Shown: piece by piece, positions 5,180-63,341 of the stretch
How the letters are laid out: every line of letters begins with the position of its first letter
How positions within the stretch are numbered: the stretch's first letter is position 1
Origin: Candidatus Sulfotelmatobacter sp.
GTDB taxonomy: Bacteria; Acidobacteriota; Terriglobia; Terriglobales; Acidobacteriaceae
DNA: 64,000 nt
NCBI GenBank assembly: GCA_036500765.1
Contig: DASYBM010000017.1
Coordinates: 62,001-126,000 of the forward strand
Reading direction: 5' to 3'
Translations under genes and position numbers: made by a program
The notes under the pieces: generated by a model
Told to the model about the DNA's origin: nothing
Database searches by the model: none
What the model saw: the letters and a program-made list of their open reading frames with translations, nothing else

Positions 5180-5205
5180 GAGCGGTGTTGCGGGTATTAG
5201 CTCAT

Positions 5206-5231
5206 GTGGGGACAGCCGCCTTTGGCTGTCC
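5206..5231. repeat. GGACAGCC palindromic element (intergenic copy)
   Basis: GGACAGCC at 5210-5217 pairs with GGCTGTCC at 5224-5231 across a 6-base loop, preceded by TGTG. It lies between the SPFH and ABC ATPase genes. Same family as 5340-5379, 14428-14456 and 63276-63297. Confidence 0.8.
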
Positions 5232-5279
5232 GTCGCACGAAGGGCGACGGGGTTCTGGTCGCGCTGCTACCATGAAGTT

Positions 5280-6341
<1,062 letters not shown>

Positions 6342-14379: not shown

Positions 14380-14427
14380 ATTGTGTCCGCGAAATTTGTC
14401 GGCAACATTTGTTCGCGATGCCGCGGC

Positions 14428-14456
14428 GGGACAGCCGATGCGGCTGTCCCCACATC
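14428..14456. repeat. GGACAGCCG palindromic element (intergenic copy)
   Basis: GGACAGCCG (14429-14437) pairs with CGGCTGTCC (14441-14449), loop ATG, followed by CCACATCA. It is nearly identical to the second hairpin inside the ABC ATPase gene. Confidence 0.85.
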
Positions 14457-32387: not shown

Positions 32388-33428
32388 GTGCCATTTCCGG
32401 AAAAAGCGCTGATTGCACAGATTCGCCGGATGGCGAGACTCGGCAAGCGGAGACAGACGGGCAAAGCCTGCCCTGAGGTTGTCGAAGGGAGTGTCCGCCC
32501 AATAAGTGTCCGGCGCAGGCGGGCCAATGTTGTGACCGGCATTGGAGACGACTGCGCAGTGCTGCGACCGCTGCCGGGACACGAAACCCTGGTCACGACA
32601 GACTTCACGCTGGAAGGCATTCACTTCCGGCGCGAGTGGCATGCGCCGGAATCAGTCGGTCATCGCTGTCTGGCACGAGGGTTGAGCGACATCGCCGCCA
32701 TGGGTGGCGAGCCGGTCGCGGCGTTCCTGTCGTTAGCGCTGCCGCGGAACCTTCCTCAAGCCTGGGTAGGGCGCTTCGTTCGCAGCCTGATAAGCCTGGC
32801 GGAGAAATTTGGCGTAACCCTTGCCGGTGGCGACACGGCCGAATCTCCTGATGGGATTCTCGCGGACATCATTGTGGTGGGCAGGGTGCCCAAGGGCAAG
32901 GCTGTGCTGCGTTCGGGGGCTCGGCCCGGCGACCGCATCTTTGTCAGCGGCGAGCTCGGCGGTTCGGCCGCCGCTGTGCTGCGGATGAGGACACGCCCTA
33001 CGAAAAAGGTGAATGTCCGCGATTACGCCCGCCACTTCTATCCCGAGCCACGGATTGAGTTGGGCCGCATCCTGCGCGAGAGGGGATTGGCATCGGCCAT
33101 GATTGATGTGAGCGATGGACTCTCTACCGACCTGGCGCATCTTTGCGAAGAGAGTCGCGTGGGAGCCGAACTGGATGCGGCGCTCATTCCCCGCGCCCGG
33201 GTAGGTAAGCCGGCCCGCGAAGTGGGTTTAGATTTGGCCCTGCATGGGGGCGAGGATTACGAGTTGCTATTTACGGTTCCCGTGAACAAGCGGATCCCGT
33301 CCCAGATTGCGGGGGTGGCGCTGACTTGCATCGGGCAGATTACCCGCTCCCGAAAGATACTTTTGCGCACCGGTCCTAAGCGGGCGTTTGGGCTCCAGGC
33401 TCGGGGATGGGAACACTTCCGGAAATAG
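32388..33428 (+). CDS. thiL: Thiamine-monophosphate kinase, with in-frame repeat insertion
   Basis: A 346-residue kinase from GTG 32388, which gives the family-like start PFPEKALIAQIRRMA. It phosphorylates thiamine monophosphate to the diphosphate. Motifs are complete: GIGDDCAVL, TTDFTLEGIHF, GLSDIAAMGGEP, GGDTAES, MIDVSDGLSTDLAHL and HGGEDYELLF. Between IRRMARLGKRR and VVTGIGDDCAV there are about 22 extra residues, including ACPEVVEGS, encoded by a known type of intergenic repeat (32466-32492). The ribosome site GGAGG is closer to an out-of-frame ATG at 32380 than to the true start. Confidence 0.92.
   Translation: MPFPEKALIAQIRRMARLGKRRQTGKACPEVVEGSVRPISVRRRRANVVTGIGDDCAVLRPLPGHETLVTTDFTLEGIHFRREWHAPESVGHRCLARGLSDIAAMGGEPVAAFLSLALPRNLPQAWVGRFVRSLISLAEKFGVTLAGGDTAESPDGILADIIVVGRVPKGKAVLRSGARPGDRIFVSGELGGSAAAVLRMRTRPTKKVNVRDYARHFYPEPRIELGRILRERGLASAMIDVSDGLSTDLAHLCEESRVGAELDAALIPRARVGKPAREVGLDLALHGGEDYELLFTVPVNKRIPSQIAGVALTCIGQITRSRKILLRTGPKRAFGLQARGWEHFRK
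32466..32492. repeat. CCCTGAG-GTCGAAGGG repeat inside thiL
   Basis: GCCTGCCCTGAGGTTGTCGAAGGGAGT matches the widespread intergenic motif with CCCTGAG and GTCGAAGGG arms (shown here as arms; the whole spans 27 bases). It is read in frame as ACPEVVEGS. Confidence 0.8.
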
Positions 33429-49815: not shown

Positions 49816-49838
49816 TGCAGGGTCGGTTTCGCTCGACA

Positions 49839-49866
49839 GGCCAGCCGAGGCGGCTGCCCCACGGGA
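49839..49866. repeat. Degenerate GGACAGCC palindromic element
   Basis: GGCCAGCCG-AGG-CGGCTGCCCC followed by ACGGGA. It is a decayed copy of the family seen at 14428-14456; pairing is interrupted at one position. Confidence 0.55.
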
Positions 49867-55443: not shown

Positions 55444-57681
55444 TCAACCAACCTCGACCAGGCCGTAAGTGTGCTGCCAGAGCGCGCGCATGTGCACCAG
55501 AGCCCGGCTGATTTCTGCGGCGGAGATTTCGTCGTCCGGGCCGGCGATTACGGCGGCCGCTTCGCGCTTGGCAGCCTCCAGTAACTGCGCATCGCGAATG
55601 AGGTTGGCAATGCGGAAGCTGGGCATGCCGGCCTGGCGCGTTCCGAAGAATTCGCCGGGACCGCGCAGTTCGAGATCGAGTTCGGCGATCTGAAAGCCGT
55701 CATTGGTATCGACCATAGCCTTCAGGCGCTTCTGTGCTTCCTCGGTAACTTTGCCGCCCGTCATCAGGATGCAATACGATTTGGCGGCGCCGCGTCCAAT
55801 GCGGCCGCGCAACTGGTGAAGCTGGGCCAGGCCGAAGCGCTCGGCATGTTCGATCACCATAACGGTCGCATTGGGCACATCCACGCCGACTTCGATCACC
55901 GTGGTTGCGACCAGAATCTGCAACTCGCCCCGCTGAAACATGCGCATGACCTGATCTTTCAGCTCAGAGTCGAGGCGGCCGTGAAGCAGGCCAACTTTCA
56001 AATCTTTGAAGATGACGCCGCTGAGATCGCGATACATCTTGACGGCAGCCTTGAGTTCGCTCTCTTCTTTCCCCGCAGTCAGATTTTCGGCGATCACCGG
56101 ATAGACTACGTAGGCCTGGTTTCCAGCCGCGACCTGTTTGCGTACGAACTCCCAAACTTTCGTCGACTCCTCGTCTGAACCGCAACGTGTGACGATGGGC
56201 GTGCGCCCCGGAGGAAGTTCGTCGAGCACGCTCAGGTCGAGATCGCCGTAGAGCGTGAGGGCGAGCGTGCGCGGGATGGGCGTTGCGGTCATGACCAGGA
56301 CATCAGGCTCAGCGGGCCGAGCTTGTGGGGAGGCTGCCGAGCTTCGCTCGGCCGGACGGCCGAGGGCGGCCGTTCCCGCATGAGGATCTTCAGTACCGTC
56401 GCCCGACTTCTTCATCAGCTTCAGCCGCTGCATGACGCCAAAGCGATGCTGCTCGTCCACGATCACCAGTCCCAACCTGGCGAACTCCACTTTTTCTTCC
56501 AGCAGCGCATGCGTGCCAATTACGAGTTGGGCGTTGCCTTGCGCGATGTGCCGACGGACTTCACGTTTGCGGTCGGCCTCAAGAGACCCGGTCAGCAGCA
56601 CGATCCGATAGCCGGCATTTTCCAGAATCCGCCGCGCGGAAAAATAATGCTGCTGCGCAAGAATCTCCGTTGGCGCCATCAGCGCCGCCTGACAACCGTT
56701 TTCAATCGCAATGATCGCCGCTTCAAAACCGACGATCGTCTTCCCGGACCCCACGTCGCCTTGCAGCAAACGCCGCATGGGATACGGCTTTTGCATATCG
56801 CCGGCAATTTCCTTCAGCACGCGCTTCTGCGCGGTTGTGGGATGAAAGGGCAATATTTTCTTGATCGCCGCCCTCACTTTGTCATCCAGGCAAAAGGCGA
56901 ATCCGGTCTGGGCCTTCTGCTGCCGCCGCTTCAATTCCAGACCGAGTTCGACGAAGAACAGCTCGTCGAAGATCATCCGAATGTGCGCCGGCGTCCGCGA
57001 AGATTGCAAGGCCTCGAAACTTTCGCCGGGCTCGGGCCAGTGCACGTTCCACAAGGCCTCGCGCGGTGAGATCAATCCCAAGCGAGCGCGCACGGCTGCC
57101 GGAATGGGATCGGCCAGCTCCGGCGTAAGATTGTCGAGCGCGGTGCGGATTGCGCGCCGGAACCAGCGCGGGGTAAGGCGTCCGGTCGCCTCGTAAATGG
57201 GAACGATGCGACCGATCTCCAAAGACTCTGCGGCTTTTTTCTCTGCCCCGTTCTCGCCGGAGTCGGCGGGATCGCCCAGAATCTCAAACTGCGGCTGAAC
57301 GATTTGCAGCTCCCGGCTGCGTTGATCTTCTTCGACCTTGCCGTAGAGCGCGATCATCTGTCCGGGCTTGAACTTGTCCTGGAGGTAAGTCGCGTTGAAC
57401 CACAGGCAGCGCAATTTCGCGCGCCCCTGGCCGACGGTGAGCTGGAAGATCGGCGCACTGCGAGTGCGGAAAAGCCCTGAGTTGCGCACTTCCCCAATGA
57501 CGGTCGCCATCTCGCCTGCTCGTAATTCCGCAATCCCCCGTGGGTTCAACCGGTCTTCATAACGGAACGGCAGATAGTGCAGCAGATCTCCAACCGTGTA
57601 AATCCCTTTACCGGCGAGGACCTCCCCAATACGCGGACCCACGCCCTTCACATATTGAACGGGAGTAGAGAGTTCGAGCAT
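55444..57681 (-). CDS. recG: ATP-dependent DNA helicase RecG, with in-frame insertion
   Basis: A 745-residue branch-migration helicase that rescues stalled forks. The N-terminal wedge/OB domain (about 10-200) is followed by helicase motif I LLQGDVGSGKT, motif II VDEQHRFGV and motif III MTATPIPRTLAL, then LLHGRLDSELKD and QLRGRIGRG. Between motif II and motif III lies an extra loop of about 33 residues (around 428-461) that includes AALGRPAERSSAASP. It is encoded by a palindromic double hairpin (56331-56380). All helicase motifs are intact. Confidence 0.96.
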   Translation of the reverse strand: MLELSTPVQYVKGVGPRIGEVLAGKGIYTVGDLLHYLPFRYEDRLNPRGIAELRAGEMATVIGEVRNSGLFRTRSAPIFQLTVGQGRAKLRCLWFNATYLQDKFKPGQMIALYGKVEEDQRSRELQIVQPQFEILGDPADSGENGAEKKAAESLEIGRIVPIYEATGRLTPRWFRRAIRTALDNLTPELADPIPAAVRARLGLISPREALWNVHWPEPGESFEALQSSRTPAHIRMIFDELFFVELGLELKRRQQKAQTGFAFCLDDKVRAAIKKILPFHPTTAQKRVLKEIAGDMQKPYPMRRLLQGDVGSGKTIVGFEAAIIAIENGCQAALMAPTEILAQQHYFSARRILENAGYRIVLLTGSLEADRKREVRRHIAQGNAQLVIGTHALLEEKVEFARLGLVIVDEQHRFGVMQRLKLMKKSGDGTEDPHAGTAALGRPAERSSAASPQARPAEPDVLVMTATPIPRTLALTLYGDLDLSVLDELPPGRTPIVTRCGSDEESTKVWEFVRKQVAAGNQAYVVYPVIAENLTAGKEESELKAAVKMYRDLSGVIFKDLKVGLLHGRLDSELKDQVMRMFQRGELQILVATTVIEVGVDVPNATVMVIEHAERFGLAQLHQLRGRIGRGAAKSYCILMTGGKVTEEAQKRLKAMVDTNDGFQIAELDLELRGPGEFFGTRQAGMPSFRIANLIRDAQLLEAAKREAAAVIAGPDDEISAAEISRALVHMRALWQHTYGLVEVG
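56331..56380. repeat. Palindromic double-hairpin element inside recG
   Basis: GCCGAGC (56336-56342) pairs with GCTCGGC (56346-56352), loop TTC. ACGGCCG (56356-56362) pairs with CGGCCGT (56367-56373), loop AGGG, followed by TCCCGCA. The order and tail match the GGACAGCC family with several changes. It is read in frame. Confidence 0.8.
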
Positions 57682-63231: not shown

Positions 63232-63275
63232 AAGCTCACCCTAATCAGTTCCTGCCACGACCACGAACCATATGG

Positions 63276-63297
63276 CGACAGCCGCCTCGGCTGTCCG
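63276..63297. repeat. GGACAGCC-type palindrome between sigma and anti-sigma genes
   Basis: GACAGCCG (63277-63284) pairs with CGGCTGTC (63288-63295), loop CCT. It lies in the 110-base gap between the sigma and anti-sigma genes on their common transcript. Confidence 0.8.
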
Positions 63298-63341
63298 GCG
63301 AAGGCGAAGCCAAGCCGCCCCGTTCCACAGCCACGCCACAC

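Follow-up and report, generated by a model that had tools for sequence, protein, structure and literature searches.

A palindromic element in the recG gene

The window, the whole 64,000-nucleotide stretch of DNA analysed here from the soil acidobacterium Candidatus Sulfotelmatobacter sp., encodes a RecG helicase of 745 amino acids (55444–57681, minus strand) with intact helicase motifs and an uninterrupted open reading frame (ORF). The ORF scored 899 bits against the NCBIfam RecG equivalog (cut-off 718), in agreement with an earlier note, which had described an otherwise complete RecG carrying a double hairpin in frame between helicase motifs II and III. A variable linker of 33 residues (426–458; 56308–56406, minus strand) separates motif II (DEQH) from motif III (TATPIPR), and it is in this linker that the hairpins are found, in frame. 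In a structure model of the protein, whose best match among solved structures is RecG 1gm5, residues 427–454 have pLDDT values <50 and lie between a confidently modelled helix (415–424) and strand (460–465); solved RecGs have a short turn at the linker position. The segment, whose exposure the note had proposed to examine by modelling, is modelled as disordered, and the RecG copy is predicted to form a disordered surface loop, with the helicase motifs intact.

The linker contains a 48-bp REP-like double hairpin (56334–56381, plus strand), reversed relative to recG, an arrangement denoted orientation A, and encoding HAGTAALGRPAERSSA; an example stretch of the REP-encoded peptide is VGTAALGRPAERSSA. 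Hairpin 1 (GCCGAGC-TTC-GCTCGGC; 56336–56352, plus strand) has a 7-bp stem and a 3-nt loop, and hairpin 2 (GGACGGCCG-AGGG-CGGCCGTTC; 56354–56375, plus strand) has a 9-bp stem with one G-T pair and a 4-nt loop, followed by the tail CCGCAT (consensus CCCACAT). The DNA fold of the double hairpin has a z-score of -3.3. Two adjacent hairpins are thus present as initially described, but the second stem is longer than the 7 bp assigned to both; similarly, the loop of about 33 residues ascribed to the stems matches the linker in length, whereas the element itself, at 48 nt (16 codons), accounts for only about half of it. A possible decayed inverted partner, recognizable by a TGTGGGGA tail remnant, was detected on the opposite strand (56323–56354, minus strand) with a weak score (19.0 bits, E 0.035). 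An intein was considered and rejected, the insert being 16 residues long.

A dispersed family with conserved secondary structure

A blast search with a 161-bp query identified 33 places in the same genome (G000, 5.0 Mb). In an alignment of 29 copies from this genome, from which the recG copy was left out, 97.2% of the cells were paired and 42 two-sided changes were observed, compared to 11.3 in shuffles, with none of the slid pairing registers approaching the true one. Both stems are conserved by compensatory changes. A covariance model built exclusively from the copies of this genome other than that in recG detected 135 places at E ≤0.01, so that the hairpins are repeated more than 100 times across the genome, and scored the recG site at 66.3 bits (E 7e-14). 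Given this match to a model derived from other copies and the 135 genomic places, the recG double hairpin is not a chance structure. A search of Rfam with the element matched no family.

Most copies are 48 nt long; a minority of about 72 nt appear to be enlarged by the insertion of another, 24-nt palindrome, which can be read in the L033 and L036 sequences. The copies occur singly or as head-to-head pairs: 7 of the 10 neighbouring pairs within 300 bp are head-to-head, with the tails outward, and none is tail-to-tail. No stop codon is present in any of the six frames in 77 of 106 copies, compared with 23% of base-shuffled ones. Because the shuffling breaks the palindrome, which itself halves the number of independent codons, and because the 106 copies are related, we do not claim selection for six-frame openness. 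Elsewhere in the window, family copies were found at 14418–14455 (plus strand; no coding context found), 63270–63317 (minus strand; weaker) and 49820–49864 (plus strand; weak, E 5e-4).

In-frame copies in other genes

The earlier note had related the tail and stem order of the recG hairpins to those in an ATPase gene of the same window, and the covariance model bears this out: an OppD/DppD-type ABC ATPase gene (5280–6341, plus strand) contains an in-frame copy of the same family (5338–5385, plus strand), read in the AALRAAGQPGAAVPTQ frame and located between LNVEFP and AVRDLSF, a site that corresponds, by our reading of the fold, to the first beta-hairpin loop of the ATPase. Its inverted partner lies upstream of the ATPase start (5204–5250, minus strand), and the two form a head-to-head pair. 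In relatives, this site is occupied by the standard unit, a composite unit or other inserts; the matches to the ATPase in the oppD-type genes of three relatives (L313, L324 and L337) each contain one stop codon.

A 40-codon coding test proved weak, yielding 8 strict cases, and whole-ORF codon scoring was used instead. By this measure, 27 of the 106 strong copies are in frame within coding-like ORFs, most of them with Pfam domains, and most of the strong copies that are not in frame have non-coding DNA on both sides, that is, the family is mainly extragenic. The Pfam-domain hosts include UvrC and an Lhr-type helicase (each with a pair), UvrD, MutS, a Y-family polymerase, FtsK, a class II ribonucleotide reductase, an MsbA-like ABC exporter, an aconitase-family protein and an aminotransferase, among others. 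Across the genus, the UvrC linker that follows the UvrB/C motif varies between the pair, one copy, other repeats and a repeat-free stretch of 16 residues. The uvrC linkers of many relatives (L279–L308) contain a different repeat, CHPERSEGSMQSAG...SARKERGPQDDKA, either replacing the recG-type element or beside it. The repeated invasion of coding sequence that the earlier note had suspected from two genes is seen across relatives in RecG, UvrC and the ABC ATPase, and within this genome in the 27 in-frame copies.

Repair genes account for 6 of 25 host genes (RecG, UvrC, UvrD, MutS, Lhr and the Y-family polymerase). This enrichment looked strong against an assumed baseline of 2–5%, but among 50 neighbouring ORFs without copies, 4 are likewise repair genes (Fisher P = 0.06), and we consider the enrichment suggestive only. 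A selected role, in which the peptide or the DNA hairpin would be beneficial in repair genes, for instance, as a switch or a regulator, might account for the share of repair genes and for a bias of reading frame described below, and a similar repair-gene bias has been reported for other REPs (PMC3733652); yet, with the number of repair genes already present in the control, the absence of the element from many relatives and the many metabolic genes among the hosts, such a role appears improbable.

Turnover at the recG site across relatives

RecG proteins related to that of G000 were obtained from MAGs of Candidatus Sulfotelmatobacter and other Terriglobia. The number of residues after KK is 12–42 in the genus and 3–58 in sister lineages, and mostly 3–5 in distant Acidobacteriota RecGs (median 3, rarely up to 17). 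Distant RecGs are without the loop and the hairpins recur more than 100 times in the genome, the opposite of the outcome that the earlier note had named as refuting its interpretation. The element was called with the covariance model together with a shuffled Smith-Waterman score; by these calls, 23 of the 38 RecGs of the genus carry it, 10 in orientation A, that of the window, and 13 in the reversed orientation B; the remaining linkers hold unrelated repeats or nothing recognisable. Further sister genera show A (for example, L164, L166, L167 and L174) or B (L171). An assembly artefact was rejected as the explanation, because the element is seen, with the frame open, in independent assemblies from many species.

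Other repeats were observed at the same position. An unrelated repeat of the CCTTCGACAAGCTCAGGGCAGG type takes the place of the element in the recG linkers of L027 and L080; a copy of the CCCTTCGACnACCTCAGGGCAGGCT-type palindrome, as in the recG genes of these two relatives, is located at 32463–32489 of the window. Three members of sister genera (L055, L056 and L058) have a third palindrome at the recG site, read DRGATGVSPV...GGDARRS, whose model score is weak and which may belong to a related or a separate family. A recG fragment at a contig end (L041:1-93) contains two tandem copies of the element in its linker, which could be real or an effect of the assembly end.

In a RecG phylogeny from which the linker residues were excluded, the five linker states require at least 24 changes, and A versus B alone at least 9, these counts being state changes and not proven insertions. 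Sister pairs of opposite orientation appear at starred branches of the tree (L157/L045, L032/L033 and L171/L059). In several clades the distance from KK to the B element is often exactly 7 residues, so that some of the occurrences reflect inheritance and not independent events. Because the same spot in recG holds the element in either direction, other repeats or nothing, one loop of RecG has been repeatedly rebuilt by repeats. These site changes may stem from fresh insertions, from inversions, from gene conversion or from inverted pairs that decayed; a pair of filled and empty sites with a target duplication was not resolved to the base.

These comparisons bear on three other accounts of the loop. 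It could be a long-standing functional part of RecG, specific to the lineage, whose likeness to the repeat is superficial, and indeed it is found at one position in most of the genus and in sister genera, with a frame that is consistent within each orientation. This account is already contradicted and highly improbable: the DNA of the loop matches more than 100 dispersed copies, close relatives have it reversed, replaced by unrelated repeats or absent, and no peptide is conserved across the differing linkers.

The two orientations might also descend from one ancestral head-to-head pair that entered recG once, with later deletions leaving either half. Head-to-head is the common arrangement of neighbouring copies, it is intact in UvrC, and the weak partner remnant adjoins the copy in the window, but the full pair is present in none of the RecG linkers read, most of which are without a trace of the other half, and subtypes and unrelated repeats alternate as well, with varying offsets of the element in the linker. 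We regard this history as unlikely.

Another process of low probability is a flip in place, whereby a 3n segment would be inverted or gene-converted time and again, exchanging the two orientations in recG. The two RecG frames are register-matched, codon-exact reverse complements, and the orientation differs between sister species, both in favour of this process, but the sites were found to share no flanking inverted repeat. The register matching is weak evidence for a flip because copies in unrelated genes prefer the same frame: among reversed-strand copies within genes, a single frame (VGT...RPAERSS) is used in 15 of 19 (P about 2e-4).

Mobilisation and a proposed model of insertion and tolerance

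No RAYT-type gene flanked by family copies was found in this genome or in the genus. In 110 kb around 36 Y1 transposase genes, 3 family copies were present, about the background density, and Y1 transposases were rejected as the mobiliser on the ground that flanking enrichment is absent. Four Y1_Tnp genes of this genome (L009, L010, L012 and L014) have different hairpins of their own on their flanks (for example, CCCAGCGCTTCAAGCGCTGGG and CCCACCCGTC...GACGGGTGGG), which shows that the genome contains further RAYT/REP sets.

The high copy number of the family, its compensated structure, its presence both between genes and in frame within them, and the turnover at the recG, uvrC and oppD-type sites are all observed. 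We consider it likely that these features reflect a dispersed, REP-like palindromic family of usually stop-free units, one of which resides in frame in recG as a neutral passenger tolerated, like others, in flexible linkers. Under this model, the 48-bp double hairpin, a member of a family of this acidobacterial lineage, would have entered recG in frame. The family would have spread as a palindrome, probably via a single-stranded hairpin intermediate acted on by some enzyme or by replication template switching. Most insertions into genes would be lost and the survivors would sit in flexible linkers, where copies could persist because most are stop-free in six frames and the standard length, 48 nt, equals 16 codons. 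The RecG copy would have no effect on RecG, and the occupied site would later be remodelled as other repeats insert, as inversion or conversion takes place and as parts are deleted.

The preference for one frame (15 of 19) is not predicted for a purely indifferent passenger, and together with the repair-gene hosts (the latter not significantly more common than in the local control, P = 0.06) it is awkward for pure neutrality. A further possibility, which we judge improbable, is that the family is a mobile module selected for protein readability, usually free of stop codons in six frames, biased to one frame in genes and capable of flipping in place, with certain linkers of repair proteins (RecG and UvrC) as permanent insertion sites at which loops diversify from species to species.

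Comparison with known repeat families

The element is REP-like in the broad sense, that is, a short palindrome, dispersed, present in high copy number and mainly extragenic. In-frame REPs, including those in repair genes, are already known. The intragenic GTAG- and CGTC-tagged REPs (Di Nocera 2013, PMC3733652) similarly are short dispersed palindromes, often head-to-head, some of them in frame, including in DNA repair genes, whereas the acidobacterial family is a double hairpin with the consensus tail CCCCACA; the consensus derived from 29 copies has no GTAG tag at the hairpin foot. The description of CGTC-REPs specifies CGTC/TGTC at one end, a single stem of 8–9 bp with AT at the first two positions, and a tail like CCA. 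Set beside that description, the second stem of our element ends in CGTC/TGTC followed by CCCACA, yet there are two hairpins and the stem ends are GG/CC.

With REPIN/RAYT systems, the family shares palindromes in inverted pairs (7 head-to-head) and about a hundred dispersed copies, but differs from them in having neither GTAG nor a flanking RAYT-type gene in this genome or the genus. With respect to MITE criteria, a target duplication was not resolved, and genes of Y1, the transposase family examined, are not flanked by copies. The Rickettsia palindromic elements (RPE), as cited in PMC3733652, are in-frame palindromic repeats tolerated in protein-coding genes; in-frame insertion into ORFs of unrelated genes is likewise seen in the acidobacterial family, which belongs to a different phylum and host type and has a shorter element than RPE-1. 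A literature search, with most subscription journals outside its scope, found no report of such repeats for recG, Acidobacteria or Sulfotelmatobacter, and recG is not mentioned in the text of PMC3733652.

The new findings are the double-hairpin family and a single helicase site that has been remodelled repeatedly, with the element in both orientations. Earlier in-frame REPs were listed genome by genome, whereas the recG site can be traced through tens of related species, making the entry of palindromic repeats into genes and their tolerance by proteins testable with a single protein. The results also carry a warning for annotation and structure prediction, namely, that loop-rich 'extra domains' of these acidobacterial proteins are often repeat-derived. 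A published precedent for a shared site is recB, where different REPs occupy about the same position in two Xanthomonas species (PMC3733652); compared with that case, the recG site is traced much more widely and holds the element in both orientations as well as other repeats.
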